Shown in pieces: positions 34,555 to 48,706 of a stretch of 64,000 bases of DNA (its first letter is position 1; each line of letters opens with the position of its first letter). The position numbers and the translations under genes are program-made. This DNA comes from Fulvivirga maritima (GTDB taxonomy: Bacteria; Bacteroidota; Bacteroidia; Cytophagales; Cyclobacteriaceae): positions 5,389,001 to 5,453,000 of the forward strand of contig NZ_CP089980.1 in NCBI RefSeq assembly GCF_021389955.1, in the 5' to 3' direction. The notes under the pieces were generated by a model, which saw only the letters and a program-made list of their open reading frames with translations, had not been told where the DNA came from and did no database searches.

Positions 34555-35328
34555 CTAATACAAGTCCTCAATACCATAACTAGTAGGATGATTAATACTT
34601 ATATTATTGTCTTCAAAATCTTTAAAATATCTAGCGAGAGCTTTATAATTCTCCTCAGAAGAGTTATTGAGGTCAGCAATGCTAAACTTTAAATTGCTCA
34701 ACTCGTCATCTCCTGACTGTTTTACGAGTACACATCTACCCGCAATAGGATCATTTCCCATAGACGTACCGGCAAAAGTACCTTGAATAACATCAGGAGC
34801 CGTAGTCTTGCCTAATTTATAAATGTGAAAAAACATTTTACCTCCATCTCCACGAATTAGTGCTGTCATAGCTCCTTCGGCAAAAGATAACTCACCCGTA
34901 TATTGTCTTTTAGGGCCATTTAGCAAAAAGGCCATTCTTTTTTCTATAACATTATGATTTATCTCCACTGGCGACTGGAGAATATAACCCTGCTGCTTAT
35001 TATTCATTCTCAAATAAGAATAATATTTACCTTCCATAGCCAGCAAAGACTCATGAATGTCTGGAGATTTACTGGATACGAAATGATCAAAGTTATTGTA
35101 GCCCAAATGATTAACAAGTAATTCAATATTATGCTGTGCTAAACTTATCTCTTCACTCTCACTTTTTTCACACTTTTGCCAAACTTCATACAGGTAGCGC
35201 TCTCCTATATTCAGACCACAGTCATACCAAACGCTACTCAACCCATGATGATCTGCCAGTAAGCCATATTTAGCAGTCAAATCAATTAACAGCGTTTTAA
35301 TTTGTCCAACATTATAATTATTAGCCAT
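34555..35328 (-). CDS. Hypothetical soluble protein (257 aa)
   Basis: I do not recognise a family with certainty. 257 residues with no signal peptide or membrane helix. The N-terminal third (MANNYNVGQIKTLLIDLTAKYG...) is helical. The C-terminal half has a beta-rich pattern with YTGELSFAEGAMTALIRGD, GTFAGTSMGNDPIAGRCVLV and FHIYKLGK, which could be a ligand- or effector-binding domain. It sits alone between repeat copy 34394-34521 and the odd stretch 35329-35694. Start choice: the ATG at 35328 gives the only form that begins at a sensible place after a TTATTTGG leader. Confidence 0.7.
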   Translation of the reverse strand: MANNYNVGQIKTLLIDLTAKYGLLADHHGLSSVWYDCGLNIGERYLYEVWQKCEKSESEEISLAQHNIELLVNHLGYNNFDHFVSSKSPDIHESLLAMEGKYYSYLRMNNKQQGYILQSPVEINHNVIEKRMAFLLNGPKRQYTGELSFAEGAMTALIRGDGGKMFFHIYKLGKTTAPDVIQGTFAGTSMGNDPIAGRCVLVKQSGDDELSNLKFSIADLNNSSEENYKALARYFKDFEDNNISINHPTSYGIEDLY

Positions 35329-35694: not shown

Positions 35695-35886
35695 ATGAAA
35701 AAGTTTAGATATTTTTCCCTCACAGCCCTGCTGTTCAGTTCGTTGATATTTGCTTGTAATGAAGAAAGCGTTAATCCTTTAAGAGGAGGAGGTGATGAAG
35801 AAGAAGATGACCCTATTGTTGTACCACCTCCACCGCCGCCTTCAAGTAATAATGTGACGCCAATCGATTCCCTATTAATAGTGTAG
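35695..35886 (+). CDS. Small proline-rich lipoprotein (63 aa)
   Basis: 63 residues with a signal peptide and lipobox (SSLIFAC, Cys21). An acidic run (DEEEDDP) and a proline run (VVPPPPPPSS) follow. It has no domain; it may be a truncated remnant of a larger proline-linker surface lipoprotein or a genuine short lipoprotein. A good terminator follows 8 bp after the stop, so it is an independent unit just before the kinase gene. The start is preceded by a run of A residues. Confidence 0.65.
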   Translation: MKKFRYFSLTALLFSSLIFACNEESVNPLRGGGDEEEDDPIVVPPPPPPSSNNVTPIDSLLIV

Positions 35887-35957: not shown

Positions 35958-37865
35958 GTGATGATACGTTGGCTTTTCTTCTTGCTTTTAGTGAGCAATA
36001 CACTTTTTGCACAAAGCAATAACCATAGCTTATTATTGCAATATAAGGACTCTGTGCAATCATCTCCTGTAGTTAAAAGCTACTGGTATAACCAGGTAGC
36101 TTACAACTATAACCTTCTAAGAAAATATGATAGTGCCAAAGTATATCTGTACTTAGCTATTCACTCAGAACTAATAGATATTCCTGATCAAAAGGCCTTC
36201 ATTTACTCCAATTTGGGTACTGCTCATTACTCCTCTCAAATTGACAGCAGTATGTTTTATTATCAAAAAGCCAAAGAAATATACCTACAGATAAAAGATA
36301 CTATTAACCTGGCCCTCATGAGTGCCAATTTGGGTAAAGTTTATAATGAATTAGGCGTATATGATAGAGCTTTAGAAAATCTACTAGAAGCAACCCTTTT
36401 TTTTGAACAGACTAATGACTTAAGAAATTTAGCATCATGTTATAATACCATAGCTTCCATATATTCAAAACAAGGTGACTATTATAAGGCATTAAATTAT
36501 CACCATCTGGCCTTGAAGCTACGGAAATCATTAAATATACCTCGTCAAATATCAGCGACTTATAATAATTTAGGCATTCTATTTAAAAAAATAGGGCTAT
36601 ATGACAGCACCTTAGTTTATTACAAAAAATCATTGGTAATAAAGAGACATACTAATGATTATCTCGGTTTGGGAGTAGCTATGAATAATTTAGGATCACT
36701 ATATCTGGAAATTGACAATTATGATTCGGCGCATCACCACCTTACTCAAGCATTGCACTGGAGAAAAGAAGCGAATGATAAAACTGGCACCTCCATTACA
36801 TTGAATAATCTGGGGCGGCTATATGTGCTTAACAACATGCCAAAAATAGGCCTTAAGTATTTACTACAAGCCAATGAAGAATTAAAGAATCTTAAACTTC
36901 TAGAAGAGTTAAAAGATAATTTAGAAAACCTCTTATTAGCTTATGAAGCTATGAACCTTCAGTCAGAAGCCCTTTCAACATCTAAAAGCTTAATGGTGGT
37001 AAAAGATAGTTTACTCAATCAGGAAAAGATTGAGTCTCTGATAGAGATGCAAATCAAATATGAAACGGAAAAGAAAATTAGGGAGATAGCATTACTGGAA
37101 GAAAAGCAAAAGGTACAAGAAGCCCAACTTGAAATACGTCAAATCTGGATTTTCACTTTAGTATTAATCACCTTCCTACTATTGATAATAGGTTTACTAA
37201 TTTATACAAGGTGGAATAAGGAAAAAGCAGCGAAACAGGCAGTAGAAACCTTGATGCAAGAACTTCACCATAGAGTAAAGAATAATCTTCAGCTTTTATC
37301 TAGTATATTTAGTTTACAATCAAGAGCCATTAGAGATGAAAATGCTCTTGAAGCCGTAAAAAGTGGAGAAAACAGAGTAAATGCTATGGCTATTATTCAT
37401 CAAAAACTGTATAGAAAAACAGGCAGTAGGTTAGTGAATATAAATGAATATATTACTGATTTAGTGGATGAATTAGCGGCAAGCTATGGGTACAATAATG
37501 ACAATGCTACTATTAAAACAAGCATAGAACCTCTCAACCTAGATGTAGACAAGGTCATTCCTCTGGGTCTAATTGTGAATGAGTTAGTGAGTAATTCATT
37601 AAAATATGCCTTCCCTGCTTCAGGTAAACCATACCTTGAAATTGTAATAAGTGAAGAAAATGCGCTACTCACTTTAAATATATCAGATAACGGTCCTGGT
37701 TTTCAATCGGAAAGTATCTCCAAAAACTCAATGGGCTTAAACATCATCAGGACCTTAGGCAGACAACTAAAAGCCAGCATCTGCTGGGAAACTAATAACA
37801 AAACATCTTTTACTTTAACCCTCAATTTACCCCCTCATGGAAAGAATAAAAATACTTATCGTTGA
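35958..37865 (+). CDS. TPR sensor histidine kinase (HisKA_2 type)
   Basis: 635 residues. Signal peptide about 1-18. A series of TPR repeats (about 45-335; patterns such as YNNLGILFKKIGLYDSTLVYY) would lie in the periplasm. A helical coiled coil and one membrane helix (about 393-415, IWIFTLVLITFLLLIIGLL) follow. The DHp domain is of HisKA_2 class with LHHRVKNNLQLLSSIF, and the ATPase domain shows NELVSNSLKYAF, DNGPGF and MGLNIIRTL. It overlaps the LytTR regulator gene by 29 bp, so the two form a pair. The TPR array suggests it reads a protein partner or peptide in the periplasm. It has no copy of the repeated site found before its probable targets. Confidence 0.93.
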   Translation: MMIRWLFFLLLVSNTLFAQSNNHSLLLQYKDSVQSSPVVKSYWYNQVAYNYNLLRKYDSAKVYLYLAIHSELIDIPDQKAFIYSNLGTAHYSSQIDSSMFYYQKAKEIYLQIKDTINLALMSANLGKVYNELGVYDRALENLLEATLFFEQTNDLRNLASCYNTIASIYSKQGDYYKALNYHHLALKLRKSLNIPRQISATYNNLGILFKKIGLYDSTLVYYKKSLVIKRHTNDYLGLGVAMNNLGSLYLEIDNYDSAHHHLTQALHWRKEANDKTGTSITLNNLGRLYVLNNMPKIGLKYLLQANEELKNLKLLEELKDNLENLLLAYEAMNLQSEALSTSKSLMVVKDSLLNQEKIESLIEMQIKYETEKKIREIALLEEKQKVQEAQLEIRQIWIFTLVLITFLLLIIGLLIYTRWNKEKAAKQAVETLMQELHHRVKNNLQLLSSIFSLQSRAIRDENALEAVKSGENRVNAMAIIHQKLYRKTGSRLVNINEYITDLVDELAASYGYNNDNATIKTSIEPLNLDVDKVIPLGLIVNELVSNSLKYAFPASGKPYLEIVISEENALLTLNISDNGPGFQSESISKNSMGLNIIRTLGRQLKASICWETNNKTSFTLTLNLPPHGKNKNTYR

Positions 37866-38559
37866 AGATGAACTTTTGATAGCTGAAGATTTAAAAATGA
37901 AGCTGGAAGATCATCAGTTTATAGTGCTCGACACTGTAGATTCTGGAGAGGAAGCACTACTTGTACTACAAAATGAAGAACCAGATTTAATTTTAATGGA
38001 TATTCATTTAGCAGGTGATCTTGATGGTATTGAAACCGCTGATATCATTCAAAATAAATATCAAATTCCTGTAATTTACCTCTCAGACCATACTGATCAG
38101 GAAACTGTAGATAGAGCAAAAACCACCAGACCCGTTAGTTACCTCTCTAAACCTTTTAAAGAGGGGGATCTGCTGCGCACTTTAGAATTGGCCTTTTATA
38201 ATGCTACCCATAAAAATTCAAATATCCAATCCAGACTAACTGATCGTATTCTCGTTCGCACTGATAATCAATCTGCAGTTATGATCAACTATAATGACAT
38301 CTTATACTTAGAAGCTAACCGAGCATATAGTTATATCATTACTGAGAACAAAAAATATATCCTTTCCAACAGCTTAAAAACCGTTTTCGATCAATTTGAA
38401 AGCGATGATTTTGTCAAAGTTTCGCGCAGTTATGTCATTAATATTAATCATATAACAGGCATAAATGGCAACATGATCAATTTGGGTACTCAACACAGCG
38501 TTCAAATGAGCAGCCAATACAGAGAAATGGTAATTAACCGTATTAATGTAGTTAAATAA
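37837..38559 (+). CDS. LytTR-family response regulator
   Basis: 240 residues. The receiver domain (1-120) has the acidic pocket E10/D11, phospho-acceptor D55 (LILMDIHLAG) and K in SYLSKPF. The LytTR DNA-binding domain (about 140-240) shows ILYLEANRAYSYIIT, FVKVSRSYVININHI and a C-terminal QYREMVINRI. LytTR proteins bind direct repeats spaced about two helix turns apart. Seven such repeats with a 21-bp period lie before transcription units in the next 10 kb, the first only 3 bp after this gene's stop. I infer that this protein binds them. Its start overlaps the kinase gene, so production of the pair is coupled. Confidence 0.93.
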   Translation: MERIKILIVEDELLIAEDLKMKLEDHQFIVLDTVDSGEEALLVLQNEEPDLILMDIHLAGDLDGIETADIIQNKYQIPVIYLSDHTDQETVDRAKTTRPVSYLSKPFKEGDLLRTLELAFYNATHKNSNIQSRLTDRILVRTDNQSAVMINYNDILYLEANRAYSYIITENKKYILSNSLKTVFDQFESDDFVKVSRSYVININHITGINGNMINLGTQHSVQMSSQYREMVINRINVVK

Positions 38560-38561
38560 AT

Positions 38562-38592
38562 GGTTCGGAAACCAAACAGGGTCACACGGAAA
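38562..38592 (+). promoter_or_regulatory. LytTR-type direct repeat, site 1 (before TIR gene)
   Basis: GGTTCGGAAA and CACACGGAAA, with the CGGAAA cores at 38566 and 38587, exactly 21 bp apart. The site ends 55 bp before the ATG at 38648. Confidence 0.7.
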
Positions 38593-38647
38593 TAAAAATT
38601 GATCAAAAAGAGCCTATAAGCTAACTACGCCTATCAAATGATAGGCT

Positions 38648-39784
38648 ATGACAACAGATACATATGAATATGACGTCTTCATTTCTTATGCCATTGAAGA
38701 CAAAATAAGTATTGTCACCGAATTGGTGCATAAACTTAAAGAATCAGGCATTCGTGTTTGGTATGCAGGACATCAACTATCTATGGGGCATGGTGTTAAT
38801 GAAACTATAAAAGATGGACTGAGCAAATCCCGGCATGCGGTACTCATACTAAGCCATAATTATTTCTCCAAATCCTGGCCAAGAAGAGAATATAATGTAC
38901 TCTGGGCAAAGGAAAACCAAGTGAGGAAACTGCTTCCCATTTGGCATGGTGTATCTGAAGATGAAGTTAAAGAATTTGATGCTACCCTGGCTAATAATTA
39001 CGGCATACCCAGCAGCGAAGGGGTAGATCATGTAGTGAGAATAATAGTTAAGACCATTAATGACGCTAAAGGCACTTCCCCCAGTACATTTAGTATTGCT
39101 CAGAAAAACATTCAGCAAAGAAGTCTTACTATCAGCATTCCCTTAGTACTCATGATATTGGCCTCGTTTATTTATTATCACCTCAATATAGACCTGCCAC
39201 CGGAGAATGTAATAGCATCGACCATTGAAAAACGGATTAAATTACAGGAAGCAAAAATCAATAATAACCACCAAACTACTATAAATACCAAAAAAGGAAA
39301 AACGGCTCAGATATCTGACATCACTCATTACTACGAATACTACATGAGTTTAAAAGCACAGTATCGTAATGAATATTACTTTACTACCGGATACCATAAT
39401 TTCAATTACAAAAAATATGTAGAGCCTGCTGTAGAGCTAAATTTAGAAGCTCTGGCTCCCTATGATAAATATGGTTTCTCCGCTGCAGATATGTTTATAA
39501 TTAACAATAATTTGAAACTTCCTGCCATTGACCTGGAATACAGATTTATTAATAAAACTCCAATAGAATACACCATAGTGAGCCACTATCAAAGAGATGA
39601 GCATACATATACCGTTAATGTAGACTATGATCATTACATTAGATACCTTTCGGTACACCTCTCCTATTCAAAGTATACTAATTGGATAAAGAAGAGACAG
39701 ACCAGCTTGTCTGGTTTGGAGCCACATGAAACCTATGTATTTAAGAAGGAAAACGGACAATGGATTTTCTCCGGTGTAGATTAA
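38648..39784 (+). CDS. TIR-domain transmembrane protein
   Basis: 378 residues. TIR domain at about 6-140: YDVFISYAIED (strand A and BB region), RVWYAGHQLSMGHG, SRHAVLILSHNYFSKSW, then E81 in RREYNVLW at the position of the catalytic glutamate of NAD-cleaving TIRs. One membrane helix (about 160-178, ISIPLVLMILASFIYYHL) is followed by about 200 residues with no recognised domain, which should face the periplasm. Unlike Thoeris or SIR2-TIR systems, no partner sensor or NADase gene is adjacent. It is instead the first target-like gene after a TPR kinase/LytTR pair. It may be an NAD-consuming effector or a signalling adaptor at the membrane. Confidence 0.85.
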   Translation: MTTDTYEYDVFISYAIEDKISIVTELVHKLKESGIRVWYAGHQLSMGHGVNETIKDGLSKSRHAVLILSHNYFSKSWPRREYNVLWAKENQVRKLLPIWHGVSEDEVKEFDATLANNYGIPSSEGVDHVVRIIVKTINDAKGTSPSTFSIAQKNIQQRSLTISIPLVLMILASFIYYHLNIDLPPENVIASTIEKRIKLQEAKINNNHQTTINTKKGKTAQISDITHYYEYYMSLKAQYRNEYYFTTGYHNFNYKKYVEPAVELNLEALAPYDKYGFSAADMFIINNNLKLPAIDLEYRFINKTPIEYTIVSHYQRDEHTYTVNVDYDHYIRYLSVHLSYSKYTNWIKKRQTSLSGLEPHETYVFKKENGQWIFSGVD

Positions 39785-39791
39785 AACGATG

Positions 39792-39822
39792 CATTGGGAA
39801 ACTAATCATCCCCATTGGGAAA
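39792..39822 (+). promoter_or_regulatory. LytTR-type direct repeat, site 2 (before 39875)
   Basis: Two identical CATTGGGAAA copies with cores at 39796 and 39817, 21 bp apart. A TAGGTTTA element resembling the -7 consensus follows at 39852-39859, about 30 bp after the site. Start codon 53 bp downstream. Confidence 0.75.
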
Positions 39823-39874
39823 AATAAATTCTGCCCAATAGATCCAAGCCTTAGGTTTACAATAAACATTTAGG

Positions 39875-40150
39875 ATGAATATGGATGATATTCTGATGGA
39901 TTGGCTAGACTATAATCAAAAGAAAGAAAAGGACTATATGTATTTTTCATGCTCTACTCCCTGGGAAGTAAACTACCTGATTATTAAAATACAAGCGGCA
40001 GACTCCACTATTAGAAGGGAAAAAATAATCAGAGCTATTCAGGACTGCTGCAAGTCCATACCCTCCCCCAAAACCAAGAGAACTATTTGTAAAATGTGTA
40101 TTAACTCAACTGAACTTGAACAATGGAATTATGGAATTTTGAAAATATAG
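39875..40150 (+). CDS. Hypothetical cysteine-containing protein (91 aa)
   Basis: No family recognised. 91 residues, soluble, with several cysteines (FSCSTPWE, DCCKSI, CKMCIN) that could bind metal through the CCK and CKMC pairs. It is expressed from site 2 and overlaps the next gene by 28 bp, so translation is likely coupled. The start chosen (MNMDD) is the first ATG after the repeat and after a TAGGTTTA element. Confidence 0.6.
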   Translation: MNMDDILMDWLDYNQKKEKDYMYFSCSTPWEVNYLIIKIQAADSTIRREKIIRAIQDCCKSIPSPKTKRTICKMCINSTELEQWNYGILKI

Positions 40151-40539
40151 TAACCAGATCAGAATCTAGTAACCTTATTCTGACTACGCACAGAATCAGA
40201 TATCAATATAGAAAAAAAATCACTTCTCTCATGCTTGATCAAATCAGCGGAATTGAAGTGGGATACAAAAGCAAACCTTTCTACTTACTGATAGCCATTT
40301 TATGTGGTGGTGCAGGAGGAATTGCCGCCATGGGGCAATATGCAGATGCAAGTATTCCATTATTTTTTGTAGCCCTGCTAACTCTTGTTATTTACCTTAA
40401 TTCAAGAAAGCATAGCATAACAGTGAGCTCTGCCAGTACTAAAATCATATTTTTCACTTCAGGCATTAATCAAGAAGGAATAAGGCATATTGTTAATCAG
40501 ATAGAACATACAAGAGCCAAACTCATTAAGGCGCTATAA
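40123..40539 (+). CDS. Membrane protein with bacterial PH-like domain
   Basis: 138 residues. The N-terminal strand-rich part (SSNLILTTHRIRYQYRKKITSL) followed by MLDQISGIEVGYKSK is the typical beginning of a bacterial PH domain. Two helices (about 50-85, LLIAILCGGAGGIAAM and IPLFFVALLTLVIYL) interrupt it, and the fold resumes with HSITVSSASTKIIFF. PH-like proteins of this pattern sit in the inner membrane and help assemble complexes. It overlaps the 91-residue gene upstream and shares its promoter. Confidence 0.65.
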   Translation: MELWNFENIVTRSESSNLILTTHRIRYQYRKKITSLMLDQISGIEVGYKSKPFYLLIAILCGGAGGIAAMGQYADASIPLFFVALLTLVIYLNSRKHSITVSSASTKIIFFTSGINQEGIRHIVNQIEHTRAKLIKAL

Positions 40540-40641
40540 TCCTTAACTTAAGCATCACAACTTTAAGTATTTAGTTGCAAAAACGTATTTTCCAACAAGT
40601 AATTCTGTGCAATCATAACTCAATGTCTGTTCATTTTTACT

Positions 40642-40672
40642 TGTTCGGAAAGTACAATAAGTGATTGGGAAA
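40642..40672 (+). promoter_or_regulatory. LytTR-type direct repeat, site 3 (before 40722)
   Basis: TGTTCGGAAA and GATTGGGAAA, with cores at 40646 and 40667, 21 bp apart. The site ends 49 bp before the ATG at 40722. A possible upstream ATG at 40665 lies inside the second repeat, which argues against that longer start. Confidence 0.75.
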
Positions 40673-40721
40673 TAAAATTAGTCAGTATTCAATATTTCAT
40701 CCTATTTACAGAAAAAATAAG

Positions 40722-41918
40722 ATGATGAGATTTCGAATATTACTTCTAGCTCTGGTGTTGAATTATCACCTAGGCTTCAGTCAGGATAGTGCTACATTAA
40801 TTCTAGTAGCCAATAAAAATGCTGATGTATTTATAGATGGCACAAATATAGGCATGCTTTCTCCTAACAAGCCACAAAAGTTTGATGCAGTCTCAGGAGA
40901 GCATTATTTACAGATTATTTCGAAAGAGTCTCCCACTGAAGAAAAAAATGAAATCTTAAGCTTAGATGCAGGAAGTCAAAAAGTACTTAAATTCAATTTT
41001 GACATAAAGGAAACCATTCAGCCCATACCTATTGCTGAGCTGAACTTTGATATACCAGGCATATTATTAAGTGATGCTGAAAGTGGTTCTAATAACAAGC
41101 CTGTTTTCTATTACGCTTTAGATGCCGGAGACCAATTGATCATTAACCTTAAAATGAGCAATAAAAACGGCTCTAACTCCACCAAAGTCTTTTCATACCC
41201 GGACGGCAACATACTGTTTTCAAAAGATGATTTTCAGGACCTCAATCAAAAAATCAATATTGATAAAAAGGGGATATACGGAATAAGTTTCGCAACCAGT
41301 CACTCATTTAACAGAAATATGAAAATGAAAGTGACTCGTGTACCGAGCTCCAAGGAAAGTGTTCAGTTCAATACTAAAGTTGTCTCAAAAGAATACTATA
41401 ATGCTGTTACTGTGCAATCACCACAAGCTTTCTATATCAACAGTGAATCAAATGCCGCTTTTAAAAATGGGAAATCAAAAGTTTTTATACCCTTTACTAT
41501 ACCAGAGAACGCAGTAAAGTGGTACTATACTTTCAGTGCTACAAGAGATAAAGACAAGATCAATGAGAGCTTGAAAAACTTCAATTTGCTTTCCGAAATA
41601 ACTAAATACTTAAATTCTAAACCAGGTATATCTTTCGCCCTGAACATGATTAATCAACCACCCGGATCTGATTATTGTGATATTTATCTAATTGACCATG
41701 AAAATCTATCTCTTTCACAAAATGACCAAGCCTTCTCATACCTTCCCGTTGGCTCAAGGGTCAATTATAAATCAGGAACAGTAGAGGTAAAAGAATTCAT
41801 TAATACTCCCATGTATCTAGCCATAAATAACCCAGACTTTAGCCATGGTATAAATGTAAGTATAGAGATAGTGGCTATTGTAAAAGAAACTCAATTAGAG
41901 ATGGCCGAAAACCAATAG
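40722..41918 (+). CDS. Secreted protein with PEGA-like domain
   Basis: 398 residues from ATG 40722, chosen because the signal peptide (MMRFRILLLALVLNYHLGFSQ) begins there and the upstream start would overlap the regulatory repeat. Residues about 25-90 look like a PEGA-type beta domain (VANKNADVFIDGTNIGML and KPQKFDAVSGEHYLQI). The rest (about 95-398) is beta-rich with no domain I recognise. It is predicted to be periplasmic or surface-exposed. It is a single-gene unit from site 3; the next unit has its own repeat. Confidence 0.7.
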   Translation: MMRFRILLLALVLNYHLGFSQDSATLILVANKNADVFIDGTNIGMLSPNKPQKFDAVSGEHYLQIISKESPTEEKNEILSLDAGSQKVLKFNFDIKETIQPIPIAELNFDIPGILLSDAESGSNNKPVFYYALDAGDQLIINLKMSNKNGSNSTKVFSYPDGNILFSKDDFQDLNQKINIDKKGIYGISFATSHSFNRNMKMKVTRVPSSKESVQFNTKVVSKEYYNAVTVQSPQAFYINSESNAAFKNGKSKVFIPFTIPENAVKWYYTFSATRDKDKINESLKNFNLLSEITKYLNSKPGISFALNMINQPPGSDYCDIYLIDHENLSLSQNDQAFSYLPVGSRVNYKSGTVEVKEFINTPMYLAINNPDFSHGINVSIEIVAIVKETQLEMAENQ

Positions 41919-41922
41919 GCCT

Positions 41923-41953
41923 CATTGGGAAACCCAATTGGGCCAAAGGGAAA
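41923..41953 (+). promoter_or_regulatory. LytTR-type direct repeat, site 4 (before 42004)
   Basis: CATTGGGAAA and CAAAGGGAAA, with cores at 41927 and 41948, 21 bp apart. The start codon of the Excalibur lipoprotein is 50 bp after the site. Confidence 0.75.
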
Positions 41954-42003
41954 TGTGATTATAGATTAAGACATCATTCTTATTACTTGTCATAAAAAAA
42001 AGA

Positions 42004-42330
42004 ATGAAAAAAGTAATCGCACTTCATATAATGATCCTGCTTTCCATATTAGGCAGCTGCAGCGCAGAAACCAGTCCCATTTGCCCTGATAGCAATTGTG
42101 ACAATTACACCACCCAAGAACAAGCACAAGCCGCATTTGATGCTGACCCTGAATGCTTCAAAAACCTTGATGCAGATAATGACCGTAAGGCATGCGAACA
42201 TCTACGCTCAGAAGGAGGCTCTACCAGCTGCCCTGATACTGCTAACTGTGGCTGCTCAGGAAAAACCAAGAGCGAATGTGGCGGACCATGCTGTCAATGG
42301 ATAGTGGGTACTGGCTGTAAGTGCAATTGA
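42004..42330 (+). CDS. Excalibur-type calcium-binding, cysteine-rich lipoprotein
   Basis: 108 residues. Signal peptide with lipobox (LGSCSAE). The Excalibur-like motif spans about 27-60: CDNYTTQEQAQAAFDAD followed by NLDADNDRKACEHL, where the DxDxD and CE residues match the calcium loop. A cysteine-rich C-terminus follows (CPDTANCGCSGKTKSEC, GGPCCQWIVGTGC), likely disulphide-bonded. It is predicted to be a periplasmic or surface lipoprotein. The SH3 gene 36 bp downstream shares its transcript. In other bacteria Excalibur domains often accompany nucleases or surface proteins. Confidence 0.8.
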   Translation: MKKVIALHIMILLSILGSCSAETSPICPDSNCDNYTTQEQAQAAFDADPECFKNLDADNDRKACEHLRSEGGSTSCPDTANCGCSGKTKSECGGPCCQWIVGTGCKCN

Positions 42331-42366
42331 ACCAATCCTATTTCAAACTATAACCTAACTTAATCA

Positions 42367-42783
42367 ATGAAAACAACCATTAAATTATTTGCCTTGTCTA
42401 TTTTTATGATTCTTGCCGAATCATTGTCTGCCCAAAGTTATTATGTAAACACTGAAACACTGAATTTAAGAAGTGATGAAAGTTTGCAATCAGACATTAT
42501 TGGGGAGCTCTCTTATTGTGATAACATTACCCTGGCGGCTGATAGCCTCACAACAGGTTGGGTGAAAATTGAGTTTCGAGGTAGCACTGGCTATGTTTCC
42601 AGCGAATACATTAACGAAGGCACTTGTCATAAAAATATATATACTTATCGAGTAGGAGCCATTTGCAGAGATGGAAGCTCCAGCAGTGCTACAGGCCGTG
42701 GTGCCTGCTCTCATCATGGAGGTGTATCTCGCTGGAAAACACAGGAAAAAACAGATTATATAATCTCCAATAATCAAGAATAA
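42367..42783 (+). CDS. Secreted SH3-domain protein with DUF3761-like C-terminus
   Basis: 138 residues. Signal peptide about 1-22 (ending LSAQ). A bacterial SH3 domain (about 24-80) shows YYVNTETLNLRSDESLQSD and GWVKIEFRGSTGYVSSEY, typical for cell-wall binding. The C-terminal 40 residues hold CRDGSSSSATGRGACSHHGGVSRW, matching the DUF3761 signature (CRDG...GTCSHHGGV). Convergent to the J-domain gene, which also ends in an SH3 domain; a perfect hairpin separates them. It is expressed with the Excalibur lipoprotein from site 4. Confidence 0.85.
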   Translation: MKTTIKLFALSIFMILAESLSAQSYYVNTETLNLRSDESLQSDIIGELSYCDNITLAADSLTTGWVKIEFRGSTGYVSSEYINEGTCHKNIYTYRVGAICRDGSSSSATGRGACSHHGGVSRWKTQEKTDYIISNNQE

Positions 42784-42795
42784 AATTCATCTGTA

Positions 42796-42832
42796 CTTCA
42801 CCTTAAGATTACACTTAAGGTGAAGCTTTTTC
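42796..42832. terminator. Bidirectional terminator between convergent units
   Basis: A perfect 12-bp stem CTTCACCTTAAG with a 6-nt loop (ATTACA) is followed by a CTTTTT run on the plus strand. It begins 13 bp after the stop at 42783 and overlaps the last codons of the minus-strand J-domain gene. Confidence 0.88.
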
Positions 42833-43462
42833 TCTTTCATCAGTTTCTATAAGCTCGCCCCATACCCACCCTTCATAACTCTTATATTTAATCTTTTTCC
42901 AGTGACCTTGTTGGCCTAACACAAAGTCTTCAGGACCTTGATCATCAATAATAAACACCTTTTTATTATTAGGTATTGTAACCAATATCTGAGCATTAGA
43001 CGCTGGACTTTCTCTTACATTGACTCCCTTTCTGGCTATTACTACGCCCTGACGCTGATTATTGGAGATAATGTCCGAAGAAATAAATAACAGAAAAGCC
43101 ATCAAAATATTAGCACAGAGCAATCCTCGTTTTATATTTCTCCATCTACGTACGGGCTTCCAAACGTCCACTTCTTTTCGTTTAGCCTTTGGCACCGGAT
43201 ATTTGGGTGAATCTGGTGCATACGTTGAAAAGTTTAACCTCTTTGCAGACTGCTGCTTGAGGTTTTCATCATAAATGGCCCTCTTGGTAAGATCTCCTAA
43301 AGTAGTATAAGCCTCATGTACCTGTTTGAACATACTGGCATAAAAGGAGTCGTTATCATTTTTATCAGGATGAAATTTTAATGACAATTTTCGATAGGCA
43401 TTTTTTATTTCTTCCTGACTAGCGGAAGTATCTAACCCCAGAATGTCATAGTAATTTTTCAT
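42815..43462 (-). CDS. J-domain (DnaJ-like) membrane protein with SH3 domain
   Basis: 215 residues. J domain about 3-70 with the catalytic HPD at 31-33 (LKFHPDKND), so it should stimulate an Hsp70 partner from the cytoplasm. A basic linker and one membrane helix (about 115-133, RGLLCANILMAFLLFISSDI) are followed by a C-terminal SH3 domain (about 140-205, ARKGVNVRESPASNAQ and KYKSYEGWVWGEL), which should face the periplasm. This links cytoplasmic chaperone activity to a wall-facing domain. It is the last gene of the unit driven by site 7 and is 1 bp from the upstream gene. Confidence 0.85.
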   Translation of the reverse strand: MKNYYDILGLDTSASQEEIKNAYRKLSLKFHPDKNDNDSFYASMFKQVHEAYTTLGDLTKRAIYDENLKQQSAKRLNFSTYAPDSPKYPVPKAKRKEVDVWKPVRRWRNIKRGLLCANILMAFLLFISSDIISNNQRQGVVIARKGVNVRESPASNAQILVTIPNNKKVFIIDDQGPEDFVLGQQGHWKKIKYKSYEGWVWGELIETDEREKASP

Positions 43463-43463
43463 T

Positions 43464-43703
43464 TTATCTCAGTAAGAAAAACAATTGAATAAAGGCGATT
43501 ATAAAATATAACCGCACTCTTCGCTTTACTGATTTTAGATCTTCATGTGCGGCACATTCTTCACATACTGTTCTTAAGCCATAGTATGCCCTTGAAGAGG
43601 CACCACCCGATCGTCTTCCATACCAACCACCCACAGAATATCCCGTATTAACGGTTCTTCTGTAATTGGCTCCACTGTTGCCACATTGATAACAATTTGC
43701 CAT
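43464..43703 (-). CDS. Small zinc-ribbon-like membrane protein (79 aa)
   Basis: 79 residues. The N-terminal CYQCG and a later CEEC form two CxxC pairs that could bind zinc. A middle region rich in Gly, Arg and Tyr is followed by a C-terminal helix (LYFIIAFIQLFFLL). It is nearly contiguous with the J-domain gene, so the two are probably co-produced. Zinc-ribbon plus J-domain neighbours recall substrate-binding partners of chaperones, but this is only a suggestion. Confidence 0.7.
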   Translation of the reverse strand: MANCYQCGNSGANYRRTVNTGYSVGGWYGRRSGGASSRAYYGLRTVCEECAAHEDLKSVKRRVRLYFIIAFIQLFFLLR

Positions 43704-43764
43704 ACGTCTAATTATATAAAGTCTTATAAATAATGTAGAAAATGAGATAGCTCAATATTTAAGG

Positions 43765-44355
43765 TTATATCTTGCCCAGTATAAACTCTAAAGACTCTGC
43801 CTCTCCCTCCACTAATGGCAGCAGTTGTAACATATTCTCTTCATAAAGAAAAAGCTTACCATTTCTAACATCTAACACAGCTAAAGAATAATCTGATTCA
43901 GGAATAGTAATTCTCATCAATGCCAAAACACAAGATATCTTATCCTTAGAAGGTTTAGCAGATTTTAAGTATAACTTAACTAAATATTTTTCTCCGTTCC
44001 ACTCCAAACCGACTTCCGGATTAATAGGTATATTAAGATTCCCGTGGAACCAATTTTCTCTCTCAGGGGGAAACCAAGATATCCTTTTATTACCCATGAA
44101 TCTTTTATACCCAGCTTCCATCTTCTTATAATTTTCCAATTTAGAGGATGGCAACTCTCCAATTATTTCTGATATGTCGTTTTTCGGCCTTCCATGTTTG
44201 TGAAGTTCTTGAATTGCATCTCTAAAACGTTTATAATAATCCTTAATTGGATCATAAACTTCGCCAATTTGATTTTTTATTTTTTTTGCACAAGTCATTT
44301 TAGGGCTACCAGACTTCAACACAAAGTCTATAAAAGAAGTCAATGAAATATCCAT
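43765..44355 (-). CDS. Hypothetical protein (196 aa), first gene of the J-domain unit
   Basis: I do not recognise a family. 196 residues, soluble, no signal peptide. The N-terminal half is helical and basic (YYKRFRDAIQELHKHG, LENYKKMEAGYKRFMG). The C-terminal half is a beta-rich domain (YLVKLYLKSAKPSKDKI, SLAVLDVRNGKLFL). It is the promoter-proximal gene after site 7 (60 bp), followed by the zinc-ribbon and J-domain genes. The start is set by the ATG nearest the site with normal spacing. Confidence 0.7.
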   Translation of the reverse strand: MDISLTSFIDFVLKSGSPKMTCAKKIKNQIGEVYDPIKDYYKRFRDAIQELHKHGRPKNDISEIIGELPSSKLENYKKMEAGYKRFMGNKRISWFPPERENWFHGNLNIPINPEVGLEWNGEKYLVKLYLKSAKPSKDKISCVLALMRITIPESDYSLAVLDVRNGKLFLYEENMLQLLPLVEGEAESLEFILGKI

Positions 44356-44414
44356 AGTATTATAATTTTGATTTACCCTAAAAACCTCATTATAATCGTT
44401 GTATTCAACCTTTA

Positions 44415-44445
44415 TTTCCCTGCACCCTGTTTCCGTTTCCGAAGC
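44415..44445 (-). promoter_or_regulatory. LytTR-type direct repeat, site 7 (before 43765-44355)
   Basis: On the minus strand GCTTCGGAAA (with a second CGGAAA directly following) and TGCAGGGAAA have outer cores 21 bp apart (TTTCCG at 44436, TTTCCC at 44415). The site ends 60 bp from the start codon at 44355. The extra middle core has the same 15/6-bp arrangement as in site 6. Confidence 0.7.
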
Positions 44446-44461
44446 CCACAGTTTTCCAGTA

Positions 44462-45463
44462 TTAAATTCCTAAAAAGTCATCTACTACCTGCTTCATTTC
44501 CTTCTGATCTTTGAAAGTAGAATACATATGCAGGTTCTCTGGCTTTAATCCAGACTCAGTAAGCCACTTTTTCCAGAAAAGCATTATAACTTCCCTATCT
44601 GTAGGTGAGACTGTGGTTACTCCATTAACTATGCTTCTATCATCCATTTCAAGCACCAATAATTCCACTTCACTGAGCAGCTCATTATCTAAAGGAATAA
44701 GTCCATAACCTGATTCCTCAAAAAATTGCTCCATGCTAGGATAATCAGATCGGTTAAACTCCCGCCTGAACCTGGCTATTAAACTAGAGCTAAGAAATTT
44801 AGTGCGGTTAGGATTTTGTTTATCTACCATGGTCTTATCATTGCCATATCTACCGGCTTCTATGTAGCCATCAGTAAGCAAAATGATTTTATTAAGCTTC
44901 TTTTTCACATAAATATGAGCACGATCCATTTTCTCAAAATGAGTAGTATCAATTACAGTATTGTCAAACTCCTTATCCAGATAATACCAGACATCAGCAG
45001 GCAGCAACTTACTGCCCTGGTTATATTCATAAACTGCCTGAATAGATGATTTTACTTTATCGAGATCTTTCCTATAAGTTCTACCTTCTGTTCTTTCAAA
45101 CAGGTAATCAGATCGGTCCTTCTCCCGATTTTCAAACTCTGACATATCCAGATCAAACTTAAAATCAATTGCAGGGTTCTTTATCCTGTCAATACTATAT
45201 TGATTAACAGAATAAAATTTAAAACAATCACTGGTATTTCGCTCCATGGAACGTTTAATCAATGGCTTTAAATCATTCAATACATTAAAAATAATGGTGG
45301 TATCAGCCACACTTTTCGGCTTCATCACCCGGTTACTCAAATCAGATAATACCACTACATTATTACCATATAGCATTATTGGCTTTTCCTTCTCTGTATC
45401 AATAGATGCTGCTGAGCACTGAATAAGAAACGGTACTATGCTTATAATAAATAGCTTTCTCAT
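44462..45463 (-). CDS. VWA-like lipoprotein
   Basis: 333 residues with signal peptide and lipobox (PFLIQCSAA). The domain looks like a von Willebrand factor A fold: a DxSxR-type start (VVLSDLSNRVM), then KIILLTDGYIEAGRYG, giving the metal-site Asp and Thr-Asp residues of a MIDAS-like site. It is predicted to be in the periplasm, attached to a membrane. It follows the membrane coiled-coil gene by 4 bp at the end of the site-5 unit. VWA proteins often act as scaffolds for membrane complexes, which fits its PLD and coiled-coil partners. Confidence 0.75.
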   Translation of the reverse strand: MRKLFIISIVPFLIQCSAASIDTEKEKPIMLYGNNVVVLSDLSNRVMKPKSVADTTIIFNVLNDLKPLIKRSMERNTSDCFKFYSVNQYSIDRIKNPAIDFKFDLDMSEFENREKDRSDYLFERTEGRTYRKDLDKVKSSIQAVYEYNQGSKLLPADVWYYLDKEFDNTVIDTTHFEKMDRAHIYVKKKLNKIILLTDGYIEAGRYGNDKTMVDKQNPNRTKFLSSSLIARFRREFNRSDYPSMEQFFEESGYGLIPLDNELLSEVELLVLEMDDRSIVNGVTTVSPTDREVIMLFWKKWLTESGLKPENLHMYSTFKDQKEMKQVVDDFLGI

Positions 45464-45467
45464 TATT

Positions 45468-46385
45468 TTACTGATTATTGGTTGACTTAAGATTTTGAGT
45501 TCTCCATTGCATCACCTGAGCATCGGCTTCTATGGATTTTCTTTCAGCTATGTGTACTGAAAACTGATCAAAAAGTGCATCTGTCCAGCCCCCCATAAAG
45601 ATGGCTATCCTCTCCAGCATATAAACGGTAGAAAAAGTAAAGTTCTCATTTTCAATGCGTGTGATGCTTATATGAGTGACGTTCTCAAAAACAGATTTCT
45701 GATAGTTGCATTGCTCAGTAATATTATGCTGTAACCGTTCCTTCTCAGCCTCTTTGCTTTGCTTGGCCTTTTCATCCTGCAAGAGGTCTTCTTTGTAATT
45801 AGTGATAACGGCCTTTCTATCATTAATCTCACTATTTACCTGCGCCAGCTGCTCCTTTAACTCTACTATCTTGTTATTTGAGGTTTCAATTTCCTTCATG
45901 CTTTTTAGATATTGAATATCCTTATTCCTATCATCTAGGACCTTTATAAAGTGACCTAGCAGAAATTCAAAAGTGAGTAATGCTAACAGTCCGAAAACAA
46001 ATACCAAATAAAAATTGCTATTCAGCACAACCATACCTATTTCCCATGGCTCAGACCGATCCCCCTTCAAAAACTCAATATTATAAATGGATTCTGCTAC
46101 TTTATATGCAGTAAAACCATCTACAAAAATCATCATGAGTACTAACAAGGAATAACGTCCCCATTTATTTTCGATCTTATTGAGCACAAAGATTAGCCCC
46201 ATAATAAAAACAGGAACTAACAATATAAAGGCGGCGCTCACCCAGCCTCTTTCCTGTGACTTTACTATGGCATCTCCATCAAATATTTCAGGAACTGTTA
46301 TTGTGCCTCCGGTTAATCCTTCGATACGGGCATCCTCCTGAGAAAAAAATAAGAATATAAGCAGCTGAAGAATAGAATATAACAC
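45468..46385 (-). CDS. Membrane coiled-coil protein; probably the C-terminal part of the PLD gene
   Basis: 305 residues in this frame, beginning with GTG inside the preceding gene. Membrane helices lie at about 1-14, 48-68, 78-95 and 120-145, followed by a long coiled coil (about 165-225). The 98-bp overlap with the PLD frame, the GTG start within a membrane helix, and a 7-A run (46343-46349) together suggest that the two frames are one protein broken by a homopolymer indel. Joined, the product would have about 674 residues: PLD domain, coiled coil, four helices, coiled coil. Function unknown. Confidence 0.7.
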   Translation of the reverse strand: MLYSILQLLIFLFFSQEDARIEGLTGGTITVPEIFDGDAIVKSQERGWVSAAFILLVPVFIMGLIFVLNKIENKWGRYSLLVLMMIFVDGFTAYKVAESIYNIEFLKGDRSEPWEIGMVVLNSNFYLVFVFGLLALLTFEFLLGHFIKVLDDRNKDIQYLKSMKEIETSNNKIVELKEQLAQVNSEINDRKAVITNYKEDLLQDEKAKQSKEAEKERLQHNITEQCNYQKSVFENVTHISITRIENENFTFSTVYMLERIAIFMGGWTDALFDQFSVHIAERKSIEADAQVMQWRTQNLKSTNNQ

Positions 46386-47493
46386 AATAGGCCACTACAA
46401 GAATGAGAAATAGTATGTTAGGAATAAAAGAGTACCAGGCAATTTTAGGCCTAAAACTATTGCGCTTCAGCTCATCTATTTTCCCATTATAAGCCGCTAT
46501 TTCATCAGTAAATTTAGACTTATCTCCCTGTGATAAGTTTTCTATTTCTGTTTCCACTATTACCAGTTCACTTTTAGTAACAGTCATCTCTCTATCAATT
46601 TGCTCATTTGCCAGGCGAGTTTCTTTTTCCAGTAGCGCTATTTCATTTTGAGATTTTAGATCAAGGGTACCCTTAGACCTTTCTAACTGCTCAAACAAAC
46701 TGGACTTAATAAGCTCCTTTTTCTCATTAGAGACCTTTATATCCCGCAGAAAATGAGTATAAACATTATCTAACTCCTGAGGCACATTACCTGCAAAACC
46801 AGAACAGTTAAGGCAACGCTCTTTACCCATGGCTCTAAGCTCCAAATCATCATAACTATGTACTTGTGCATAAATAAGCTTGTCTAATAAGGCCTCATAA
46901 TCCTGAATGTTTTTATCTATATCATTAGTTTCAGATGCGGTTTCAGGATGATAACCTTCCACCTTATTGATGTTATCCGGATCAAAATCTTCTGAACTCT
47001 CCAAAAGCTGATTAAACTTATCTGAGTACTGAGCAACTAACTGAGGATCTTCTGTATAAATAATATTCTCTTCGTTATTATTTCTGGCATTTTTACTCCA
47101 GTTGTATGAGCCAGAAATAAGGCTGGCCTCATCTATTATGCAATATTTACTATGCATACTGCCGTAAGATGATTTAACCTTTTTCATTCTTACAACGGCA
47201 CCAATATCTACCAGCTTTTTAAAGGGGAGATAATAATTACTCTGATTGTTATCTAACACTATTTTGATCACTAATTGCGGGTTTTGCTGAGCTCTTCTTT
47301 CCAGAGCATCAAACAAATCAAGATCAGTAAACCAAGAGGCCGCAACATACACACTTTTGTTGGCTGACTCTATTTTAGATGAGATAAGTTTAAAGATCTC
47401 CTCCCCTTCATGTAAAGAATGTTGTCGACTGCCTGTAGCAGTCTGAGGCTTACCGTTACTTTTCCATTTCGGGGTTAATGTTGGGAATTCCAT
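46288..47493 (-). CDS. PLD-family nuclease/phospholipase-like protein with membrane anchor
   Basis: 401 residues. Phospholipase D-like domain about 25-160 with one HKD motif: H114, K116, D121 in MHSKYCIID, followed by SGSYNWS. A single HKD is typical of bacterial PLD nucleases that dimerise to form an active site. A CLNC pair near 228 and a coiled coil (about 265-345) follow, then a membrane helix (about 353-380). The frame ends in an Arg-rich tail (PYRRINRRHNN) unlike a natural terminus. Dropping one A from the A7 run would continue into the next membrane protein. No signal peptide is seen, so the PLD domain should be cytoplasmic. Confidence 0.82.
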   Translation of the reverse strand: MEFPTLTPKWKSNGKPQTATGSRQHSLHEGEEIFKLISSKIESANKSVYVAASWFTDLDLFDALERRAQQNPQLVIKIVLDNNQSNYYLPFKKLVDIGAVVRMKKVKSSYGSMHSKYCIIDEASLISGSYNWSKNARNNNEENIIYTEDPQLVAQYSDKFNQLLESSEDFDPDNINKVEGYHPETASETNDIDKNIQDYEALLDKLIYAQVHSYDDLELRAMGKERCLNCSGFAGNVPQELDNVYTHFLRDIKVSNEKKELIKSSLFEQLERSKGTLDLKSQNEIALLEKETRLANEQIDREMTVTKSELVIVETEIENLSQGDKSKFTDEIAAYNGKIDELKRNSFRPKIAWYSFIPNILFLILVVAYCVIFYSSAAYILIFFSGGCPYRRINRRHNNSS

Positions 47494-47555
47494 AGGCTTT
47501 ATTGATGTTTATTTTTAATCAATTAACCTACGAATGAGAAGATTACGAACTTTTG

Positions 47556-47586
47556 TTTCCTAACGAGGCGATTTGGTTTCCGGAGG
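47556..47586 (-). promoter_or_regulatory. LytTR-type direct repeat, site 5 (before the PLD unit)
   Basis: On the minus strand CCTCCGGAAA and TCGTTAGGAAA have cores exactly 21 bp apart (TTTCCG at 47577, TTTCCT at 47556). The site ends 63 bp before the PLD start codon. Confidence 0.7.
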
Positions 47587-47635
47587 GTATAATTTATTGA
47601 AGTAACACTAATGACATCTCCAAAAAATGGCCACT

Positions 47636-48136
47636 TCACTTATCTATAATAAGTTGCTTCAATTGAAACCAATACTCTTCATCCCAGTACCTTCTGGCAC
47701 TGCCAGATGTTGAAGGCAGCACGAATATTTTGGACTCCCCGATAGTTTTCTCTTGCAAACCATACTTCACATGCTTAGTAACTCCTCCATAGCCAAGAAC
47801 AAATGAGGCTCCTTTCTTACTATTAAAGGCCACATATTTAGGTTGATAGGCTAAAATTTTGTCAATGAAATTATCCACCTCATAACTATCATCAGAAACC
47901 TCATTGTCATTTACATATTGGGTATGCACCAAATCGGTTAAACCTATCCTGTATTGATTAATCTGAAAACAGTCCTTAGGTTCTAACTTGCGGTTAGTAA
48001 ATCCTGCCTGGTATAGTATATCGTAAAATTTGTTACCGGGGCCTGCATAATAAAACCCTTTCTTAAATGAGGCTGTACCTTTAGCCGTACCGCAAAAAAC
48101 AACATCTAGATTATGAGTAAGAACATCTTTAAACAT
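47636..48136 (-). CDS. mug: Mug-type mismatch-specific uracil/thymine DNA glycosylase
   Basis: 166 residues. The start LDVVFCGTAKGTASFKKG and YYAGPGNKFYDILYQAGF match the G:T/U mismatch glycosylase family (Mug), which removes uracil or thymine from mismatches. The C-terminal LPSTSGSARRYW replaces the usual NPSGLN motif of the family with a related Ser-rich loop. It is cytoplasmic. It starts 50 bp after the two-helix membrane gene, so it is probably the last gene of the site-6 unit. This puts a DNA-repair enzyme under the same inferred regulation as the TIR and PLD genes. Confidence 0.85.
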   Translation of the reverse strand: MFKDVLTHNLDVVFCGTAKGTASFKKGFYYAGPGNKFYDILYQAGFTNRKLEPKDCFQINQYRIGLTDLVHTQYVNDNEVSDDSYEVDNFIDKILAYQPKYVAFNSKKGASFVLGYGGVTKHVKYGLQEKTIGESKIFVLPSTSGSARRYWDEEYWFQLKQLIIDK

Positions 48137-48186
48137 AGTAGGAGATTAAAATGTAAAAGTAAGATCTATTTCAATAATGCTCTAAA

Positions 48187-48471
48187 CTACTTCAATCCAT
48201 CAAATACCCTCGCCTTCTCTTCATCAGTTAAAGGATAAATCTTGGCGCTTATATTCTTCAATTCATGAAGAATTTCCGCATCTCTATTTTCTTGAGTATT
48301 AAGAGCTGAAATGGATCGGGCAAAACAATAGGGTATGATAGTAATGCACATAGCAATTGCAGCTACACTAGCTTCCTGAGGCGCACTTTTTGCACTTTCA
48401 AGACCAGAATACAAGAACAAACCTCCTGCAGAGGCACCTACAAGTGAAATTATCCAAACTATAGTTTTCAT
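48187..48471 (-). CDS. Two-helix membrane protein (94 aa)
   Basis: 94 residues. Two hydrophobic segments (about 4-24 and 35-55) precede a charged C-terminal helix (NTQENRDAEILHELKNISAKI). No family recognised; the C-terminal helix should be cytoplasmic. It starts 7 bp after the 44-residue basic protein's stop and is followed by the Mug-type gene, so all three likely share one transcript. Confidence 0.7.
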   Translation of the reverse strand: MKTIVWIISLVGASAGGLFLYSGLESAKSAPQEASVAAIAMCITIIPYCFARSISALNTQENRDAEILHELKNISAKIYPLTDEEKARVFDGLK

Positions 48472-48478
48472 AATAATC

Positions 48479-48613
48479 TCAATCTCCAGGTTGATGTTTA
48501 TGAGGCTTCAAATCCGGATGTTTAGGCTTAGTTTCCGGATTTACTCTTCTCCTTCTATCGGGTGTACCATCTTCCTTTTTAGGTTTTGGCCCAGGTTTTA
48601 TCATGTTTATCAT
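48479..48613 (-). CDS. Small proline- and lysine-rich protein (44 aa)
   Basis: 44 residues starting MINMIKPGPKPKK. It is very basic and rich in Pro, Lys and His, with RRRR in the middle and HPDLKPHKHQ near the end. It is likely disordered and could bind nucleic acid or membranes. It is the first frame after site 6 (62 bp), a spacing that matches the other units and is the main support for it being real. An internal ATG three codons later is also possible. Confidence 0.6.
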   Translation of the reverse strand: MINMIKPGPKPKKEDGTPDRRRRVNPETKPKHPDLKPHKHQPGD

Positions 48614-48675
48614 CTTCTTTTAATTGTTGGTATTACTATAAATTAACTGAAGCAGGAAGTATTAATAAATTAAAC

Positions 48676-48706
48676 TTTCCGAACAACCTGTTTCCCTTTC
48701 CCAACG
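48676..48706 (-). promoter_or_regulatory. LytTR-type direct repeat, site 6 (before the Mug unit)
   Basis: On the minus strand CGTTGGGAAA (with a second GGGAAA directly following) and TGTTCGGAAA have outer cores 21 bp apart (TTTCCC at 48697, TTTCCG at 48676). The site ends 62 bp before the ATG at 48613. Confidence 0.72.

Follow-up and report, generated by a model that had tools for sequence, protein, structure and literature searches.

Does a regulator encoded at the head of a gene island also control that island, and does its reach extend beyond it? The question is raised by a 64,000-nucleotide stretch of the Fulvivirga maritima genome (assembly GCF_021389955.1, contig NZ_CP089980.1, positions 5,389,001 to 5,453,000 of the forward strand), hereafter the window, whose own coordinates are used below. 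In it, a TPR-containing histidine kinase and a LytTR-family response regulator are followed by a TIR-domain gene and an island of accessory genes, with pairs of GGAAA repeats ahead of the transcription units. The initial annotation of this DNA proposed that the single regulator controls all of these units as one response through seven direct repeats with a period of 21 bp. We find that this proposal is supported for the island units and is incomplete in scope, as sites of the same kind also precede CRISPR and other defence genes elsewhere. On balance, we favour a reading in which the TPR-HisKA2/LytTR two-component system activates both the TIR island and distant defence genes through GGAAA pairs.

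A check in the sequence finds all seven pairs at the positions and on the strands first given for them:

38563..38595, plus strand: site 1, precedes the TIR gene; equivalent position in 13 of the 18 cassettes described below
39793..39825, plus strand: site 2, precedes the 39875-40539 unit
40643..40675, plus strand: site 3
41924..41956, plus strand: site 4
44412..44444, minus strand: site 5, precedes the 44355-42815 unit
47553..47585, minus strand: site 6, precedes the PLD unit; one half reads AGGAAA
48673..48705, minus strand: site 7, precedes the 48613-47636 unit

The initial annotation put the first start codon 50-63 bp away; from the second core, the distance is 49-62 bp. It holds for all seven pairs, for the seventh only if a 44-aa ORF (48479-48613) is counted as its first gene; otherwise the next ORF starts 204 bp off. 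Counting [ACG]GGAAA pairs in the window gives 7 at a period of 21 bp, all within the island, and 11 in total at the 52 remaining periods between 8 and 60 bp. Across the 6.39-Mb genome, the loose form VGGAAA-N15-VGGAAA occurs 30 times versus 48 for the reversed control, and a genome-wide excess of the loose pair is therefore absent. Matches do concentrate in the island, as the single-regulator proposal had led one to look for: its 10.1 kb hold 7 of the 30, with about 0.05 expected by a hand estimate. The strict form TTSGGAAA-N13-TTSGGAAA has five matches in the genome, three of them inside the island, and its control has none. Eight SGGAAA pairs outside the island were fetched in 4-kb stretches. 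Four are within ORFs (87073, 1577691, 2536103 and 2630130), two that lie outside listed ORFs have no same-strand ORF of at least 90 aa within 350 bp behind them (4014106 and 4620858), and the remaining two are the TTS matches at 1066508 and 2787269.

The arrangement is shared with relatives. We searched for the regulator in 58 related genomes and fetched the regions around the 11 best orthologues outside the genome of F. maritima itself (273 kb in total; genomes, contigs and loci carry our G, C and L labels). All 12 loci, window included, preserve the gene order cl2 (a divergently transcribed gene discussed below), kinase, LytTR, TIR. The layout of this cassette is cl2, TPR-HisKA2 kinase, LytTR regulator, a site, the TIR protein, another site and variable accessory genes, with a shorter TIR gene in G013 and G030. 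Full-length cl2 is found in exactly the 12 cassette genomes among the 58. Scanning named genomes with an alignment of cl2 returned 15 loci, nine already among the 12 and six further (Agaribacillus aureus, Flammeovirgaceae UBA5867, Chryseotalea sanaruensis, Dawidia soli, a Chitinophaga metagenome-assembled genome (MAG) and Parachryseolinea silvisoli), and all four genes are present in each of the six. Regulator identity is 99% between the window and F. sediminis (G006), where site 7 has no counterpart at the matching place. In the 273 kb of relatives, 33 [ACG]GGAAA pairs have a period of 21 bp and at most 4 have each other period from 8 to 44 bp. The pair behind the regulator gene, present in 13 of 18 cassettes, begins 5-12 bp after the stop codon (to the first GGAAA). 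The site at this place has a period of 22 in G012 and one degenerate half in G009, and across the 18 loci compared no pair stands there in G033, UBA5867 or the Chitinophaga MAG. Triplets of half-sites occur in G030. G009 also carries a second, more diverged cassette (L165, G009:C20) with cl2, kinase, LytTR, TIR and accessory genes, and without a 21-bp GGAAA pair.

One locus, G263 (L181), was held out of the motif definition. It contains 8 pairs at period 21 and no more than 2 at any other period. Six of the 8 are inside its cassette, behind the regulator, behind the TIR gene and before the Cys-rich lipoprotein, and a half-site triplet precedes the homologue of the window's 94-aa gene, which belongs to the site 7 unit. 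In diverged relatives the repeats are likewise found ahead of genes of these kinds, the comparison by which the initial annotation had suggested its proposal be judged. Concentration in the island, this conservation and the agreement of the held-out locus in site placement all support a regulon under a single regulator, and as a sequence feature the regulon is real.

We aligned 54 sites, nine pairs having been dropped beforehand as inside genes or chance. The half-site consensus is ycnTTsGGAAAsy, with T-rich blocks at +31 to +34 and +55 to +61. Box positions were tested on 42 sites, with G006 dropped as a near copy of the window, triplets cut to their last pair and sites with fewer than 60 bases behind them omitted, as they were from the later box counts. 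TTTG (up to one mismatch) lies 4-6 bp past the second GGAAA at 33 of 42 sites (shuffle mean 7.9), and TAnnTTTG (up to two mismatches) lies at an offset of 28-31 at 29 of 42 (shuffle mean 11.4). Neither count was equalled in any of 2000 shuffles, which overstate the certainty because sites from the same genome, like orthologous ones, are not independent of each other. We take the two blocks to be the -33 and -7 boxes of Bacteroidota. The direct repeats are thus about two helix turns apart and upstream of target promoters. AgrA is a LytTR regulator that binds repeats two turns apart. The 21-bp period also fits published LytTR binding as described in the available part of PMC11347149, where RcoM and CoxC recognize 8-9 bp direct repeats with a period of about 21 bp in two or three copies. 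These proteins resemble the cassette regulator in being REC-LytTR or LytTR proteins with repeats two turns apart, and the cassette regulon differs in its GGAAA half-site, its Bacteroidota promoter and its defence-gene targets.

Most LytTR regulators, according to the same part of PMC11347149, bind upstream of the -35 element and activate. The sites described here are directly upstream of the promoter, and therefore they are most likely activator sites of the adjacent LytTR protein, which likely binds them and activates transcription. Could the regulator instead repress transcription until a signal releases it? Within the LytTR family, CoxC acts as a repressor, its site overlapping the -35 element (PMC11347149, same part), and the last half-site here ends about 5 bp before the -33-like block. 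Nevertheless, we regard repression as quite improbable given the prevalence of activation from upstream among LytTR regulators and the lack of a -33 excess at distant sites (discussed next), which is expected under activation because an activator would replace the -33 box.

The association of sites and cassette extends across genomes. We counted TTNGGAAA-N13-TTNGGAAA in the 58 genomes with the reversed pattern as control. The 12 cassette genomes contain 60 pairs versus 6 for the control, whereas the 46 genomes without a cassette contain 34 versus 30. An excess confined to cassette genomes fits the regulon proposal. Only 22 of the 60 pairs are inside cassettes and 38 are elsewhere; the regulon is wider than the island. 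Among these distant pairs, 33 of 38 are outside ORFs of at least 100 aa (three are inside by script, and two are inside ORFs running off the stretch). The -7 box recurs at the same offset behind 27 of 33 non-CRISPR distant sites (shuffle 11.4) and behind 6 of 6 CRISPR sites (shuffle 1.5). A composite pattern, GGAAA-N16-GGAAA-N28-31-TAnnTTTG, was found at 43 places versus 23 for the control in 291 genomes of the order, a sample poor in cassettes (6 of the 291 have a cl2 match at E <= 1e-20) and for which the exact -7 box is too strict; the places include one in the F. maritima genome and one in G170. In F. maritima, the strict site at C1:2787269 (L062 2270) is followed at offset 29 by a perfect -7 box, TAGATTTG, with no same-strand ORF of at least 60 aa soon behind; it might serve a small RNA or be a relic.

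In G001, G008 and G014, distant sites often share sequence over a longer stretch and lie 136-270 bp from the gene. This shared sequence, together with the lack of a genome-wide excess of loose pairs, could suggest that no regulator is involved and that the pairs arose by chance or as a dispersed repeat. We give that explanation next to no weight and reject it: cassette sites are conserved in diverged genera, the period and -7 phase are fixed while the spacers have diverged, and most distant matches avoid ORFs. What we term family-2 sites may be a wholly separate element, although their -7 phase is the same. In the same three genomes, a palindrome like TACCCAAGGTTGGGTA followed by TTGACA lies about 75 bp upstream of many distant sites (L081, L082, L085, L097, L100 and others), and TACCCTGATCAGGGTA, which resembles it, precedes cas6 in the cassette-less G034 (L115). 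Palindromes of the TACCCAAGGTTGGGTA type are possibly the operator of a second regulator.

Which genes stand behind the distant sites? Outside cassettes, pairs precede CRISPR genes in six genomes. In F. maritima itself (G000), one of the two distant strict sites is upstream of a type I CRISPR-Cas operon that, read by eye from its ORFs, runs from cas8 to cas4 and then into a repeat array. The site lies about 600 bp before cas8 with a 114-aa ORF in between, and 18 bases from its first GGAAA are identical to the F. marina site before TIR. The cas8 of this operon is found in 2 of the 58 relatives. At E < 1e-20, a Cas6 search of the same relatives returned 17 close genes, and cassette genomes account for 13. 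A pair precedes five of these 13 (in G014, G002, G033, G009 and G012, the one in G002 without the TT), and 0 of the 4 close cas6 genes in genomes without a cassette. Type I-B matches include Cas6b and Cas3b in G014 and Cas8b in G002; in G009 no further cas gene was recognised by eye behind cas6. A candidate regulator site before cas genes is what one looks for in a two-component regulator of CRISPR-Cas. Many of the 58 relatives, including ones with no close cas6, also have one weak Cas6 match, with identity near 24% and E between about 1e-13 and 1e-4, in an open frame of mostly 270-305 aa.

In four genomes, pairs outside cassettes precede CBASS, Gabija-type and other defence genes. We scanned 18 genes behind a subset of the distant sites against PADLOC, taking the defence-looking ones first. 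Six of the 18 match at E < 1e-10, as against 0 of ten random flanking control genes:

G002: CBASS cyclase, 1.4e-117
G008: GajA, 2.4e-269
G014: PDC-S06, 4.3e-284
G014: Argonaute-associated helical REase, 3.1e-26
G001: GajA/OLD-like ATPase, 4.1e-17
G001: LmuA, 4.5e-14

Based on these genes and on the TIR effector described below, we propose that the regulon probably serves anti-phage defence.

Several observations pull the other way. No pair of any kind is found in three cassettes, those of UBA5867 and the Chitinophaga MAG and the second one of G009. The -7 box is present at 4 of the 7 window sites and, within two mismatches, at only 2 of the 8 pairs in G263, and the -33 box has no clear excess at distant sites. 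G001, G008 and G014 contribute the majority of distant sites, and these have sequence in common beyond the half-sites. A clean pair is absent at 8 of the 13 close cas6 genes in cassette genomes (two have one half degenerate, six have none), and strong PADLOC matches are lacking for 12 of the 18 scanned genes: three give weak ones (1.6e-6, 7.7e-5 and 6.4e-4) and nine give none, one of the nine having an ABC-3C domain match in Pfam. The -7 box is also found at 6 of 11 sites fetched from cassette-less genomes (shuffle 2.6), and therefore some of those sites may belong to other regulators. Lastly, the F. maritima genome has 47 matches to the regulator protein at E <= 0.001, receivers included.

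This abundance of paralogues favours an explanation in which the repeats are bound by another LytTR protein, with the adjacent one a bystander, or in which the distant sites are shared by different LytTR proteins. Two further observations point the same way: G027 and G055 have 5 pairs each without a cassette, and in G021, also without one, two GGAAA pairs (L154 6003 and 6932) flank the LytTR gene of an unrelated TPR-kinase pair. As a group, however, only cassette genomes have an excess of pairs, and 13 of 18 cassettes carry a pair directly behind their own LytTR gene; we consider control by a different LytTR protein improbable.

The genes of the window cassette and island are as follows (family labels from Pfam or NCBIfam):

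34555..35328, minus strand: cl2, 257 aa, divergent from the kinase operon
35695..35886, plus strand: small predicted lipoprotein, 63 aa, BLAST-grouped homologues in 6 of 12 loci
35958..37865, plus strand: TPR / HisKA_2 / HATPase sensor kinase, in 12 of 12 loci
37837..38559, plus strand: response regulator with LytTR domain (Response_reg 4.8e-22, LytTR 1.2e-16)
38648..39784, plus strand: TIR-domain protein (TIR_2 3.1e-18) with hydrophobic helix and C-terminal domain
39875..40539, plus strand: two overlapping small genes (91 and 138 aa), the 138-aa family in 5 of 12 loci
40722..41918, plus strand: secreted protein, homologues in other cassettes
42004..42783, plus strand: Cys-rich lipoprotein (108 aa) and SH3_3 protein (138 aa), the Cys-rich family in 5 of 12 loci
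42815..44355, minus strand: DnaJ/SH3_3 protein, 79-aa protein and 196-aa protein
44462..47493, minus strand: PLD-like protein (PLDc_2 2.2e-21; two overlapping ORFs) and 333-aa lipoprotein-like protein
47636..48613, minus strand: 44-aa ORF, 94-aa membrane protein and Mug/UDG-type DNA glycosylase

The regulator has the receiver plus LytTR composition of a LytTR-family response regulator. The TIR, DnaJ, SH3_3, PLD and Mug/UDG labels first given to these genes are borne out by Pfam or NCBIfam, and the labels PH-like (138 aa), PEGA-like (40722..41918), Excalibur and VWA (333 aa) find no Pfam match at E <= 0.001. The PLD-type gene (45468-47493, minus strand) consists of two ORFs, 46288-47493 and 45468-46385, that overlap in different frames; F. 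sediminis has a single ORF of 674 aa in its place and F. marina has two.

The DnaJ and SH3_3 proteins, the DNA glycosylase and the several exported proteins, together with stomatin/NfeD-like proteins seen by eye in a relative's island, would also suit a response to envelope, oxidative or DNA stress that uses the same regulator and sites and has defence genes as only some of its clients. We consider this unlikely in view of the CRISPR, CBASS and Gabija-type genes behind distant sites and the presence of a TIR gene in every cassette seen.

The TIR protein is predicted to be an NADase. It has a TIR fold, with PdTIR as the best PDB match (E 5e-11), and its E81, which we take to be the catalytic Glu of TIR domains, is invariant in 12 of 12 loci. 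Its C-terminal domain is modelled with good confidence. The closest PADLOC family for the protein is PDC-S66 (9.2e-40), with the match confined to the TIR part. The cassette protein shares a TIR domain with conserved Glu with PDC-S66, ThsB and TIR-retron effectors in PADLOC and, unlike them, has a hydrophobic helix and its own C-terminal domain and is tied to a two-component system. Thoeris membership was considered and rejected: in a PADLOC scan of ten window proteins, ThsB-like matches covered the TIR domain only and ThsA was missing. No ThsA stands beside the TIR gene in the window island or in the 17 other cassettes (ORFs listed; others judged by eye), and in contrast to Thoeris and TIR-retron systems neither ThsA nor a reverse transcriptase is seen beside it.

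The cl2 protein is modelled (pLDDT 86) with a helical N-terminus and a C-terminal beta barrel. The window protein has no Pfam match at E <= 1, and a Pfam scan of the 12 cl2 proteins gave single-member, chance-level matches only. A fold search gave weak calycin/lipocalin-like barrel matches (best E 2.1e-3, TM about 0.3), and because these are weak we claim no function for cl2. In the genomes of F. maritima and F. sediminis, a paralogous set of lipoprotein, divergent TPR-kinase, LytTR and a cl2-like 345-aa protein heads a type I-D-like operon (L164 8302-19001, L148 and L167). The F. maritima operon matches Cas7d (2.9e-28), Cas5d (4.3e-23), the Cas3 of type I-D (2.5e-36), Cas6b (8.6e-59) and Cas1b (4.5e-158), with cas4 and cas2 recognised by eye. 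A 939-aa protein between the paralogous set and the I-D-like genes has no PADLOC match, and GGAAA pairs with a 21-bp period are absent from the type I-D-like loci. In G023, G046 and G016, sequences matching the cl2 N-terminus lie next to, or not far from, other LytTR genes. Genes resembling cl2 are seen without a LytTR gene in G102 and G170; in G170, neither kinase nor LytTR was recognised beside the gene on its 5.8-kb contig. At a locus of G016 (L170, G016:C121), 20 kb contain two pairs of TPR-kinase and LytTR genes, along with a short cl2-like ORF and large unidentified genes in the vicinity. We tentatively suggest that TPR-kinase, LytTR and cl2 could form a portable immune command module, with cl2 as an infection sensor or adaptor, that either commands the TIR island and a genome-wide defence set (CRISPR, CBASS, Gabija-type) through phase-locked promoters or heads an I-D-like operon.

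Two-component control of CRISPR is already known; the novelty here lies in the type of regulator, the TIR cassette that accompanies it, a switch that can be read from the DNA and the range of systems behind it. The available part of PMC8523701 describes PpoS/PpoR of Marinomonas mediterranea, a histidine kinase and response regulator that, as proposed here, jointly control CRISPR-Cas (two systems, together with phage resistance); PpoR has a LuxR-type DNA-binding domain, is of the BarA/UvrY kind, acts also through Csr and has no TIR cassette. The regulator in the window carries a LytTR domain in place of a LuxR-type domain (Pfam). The Rsm pathway acts post-transcriptionally and differs in not being a LytTR direct repeat at promoters. 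In Pseudomonas, the Gac/Rsm pathway is a single signalling pathway controlling broad defence factors against phage and bacteria (PMC11888443, available part). VicR/K and KinB/AlgB are further examples of two-component control of cas genes in the available part of a review of CRISPR-Cas control (PMC10013973), whose text does not use the term LytTR; they are general regulators and are not encoded with a TIR effector. Literature searches returned no paper that combines a TIR domain with LytTR and a histidine kinase, or that brings together LytTR, a TIR domain, two-component systems and Bacteroidetes, and papers on LytTR with phage defense or CRISPR-Cas describe no such regulon in their titles and the start of their abstracts.

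Based on these data, we propose that the TPR-HisKA2 kinase and LytTR regulator would act as a two-component system responding to a signal, with cl2 as a possible sensor or adaptor. The regulator would bind ycnTTsGGAAA half-sites arranged in pairs or occasionally triplets at a spacing of two helix turns and, placed about 29 bp before the TAnnTTTG (-7) box, would meet RNA polymerase and lead to transcription. The TIR gene and island accessory units would be switched on and, where present, so would distant genes, among them cas6, type I operons, CBASS and Gabija-type genes.

How bacteria coordinate their many defence systems is largely open, and here a dedicated two-component system seems to command TIR, CRISPR-Cas and others. 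If this is true, the switch could be used to scan cassette genomes for new defence genes, the signal that tells of infection would become testable with a simple reporter, and Fulvivirga and some of its relatives would possess a dedicated immune control circuit.

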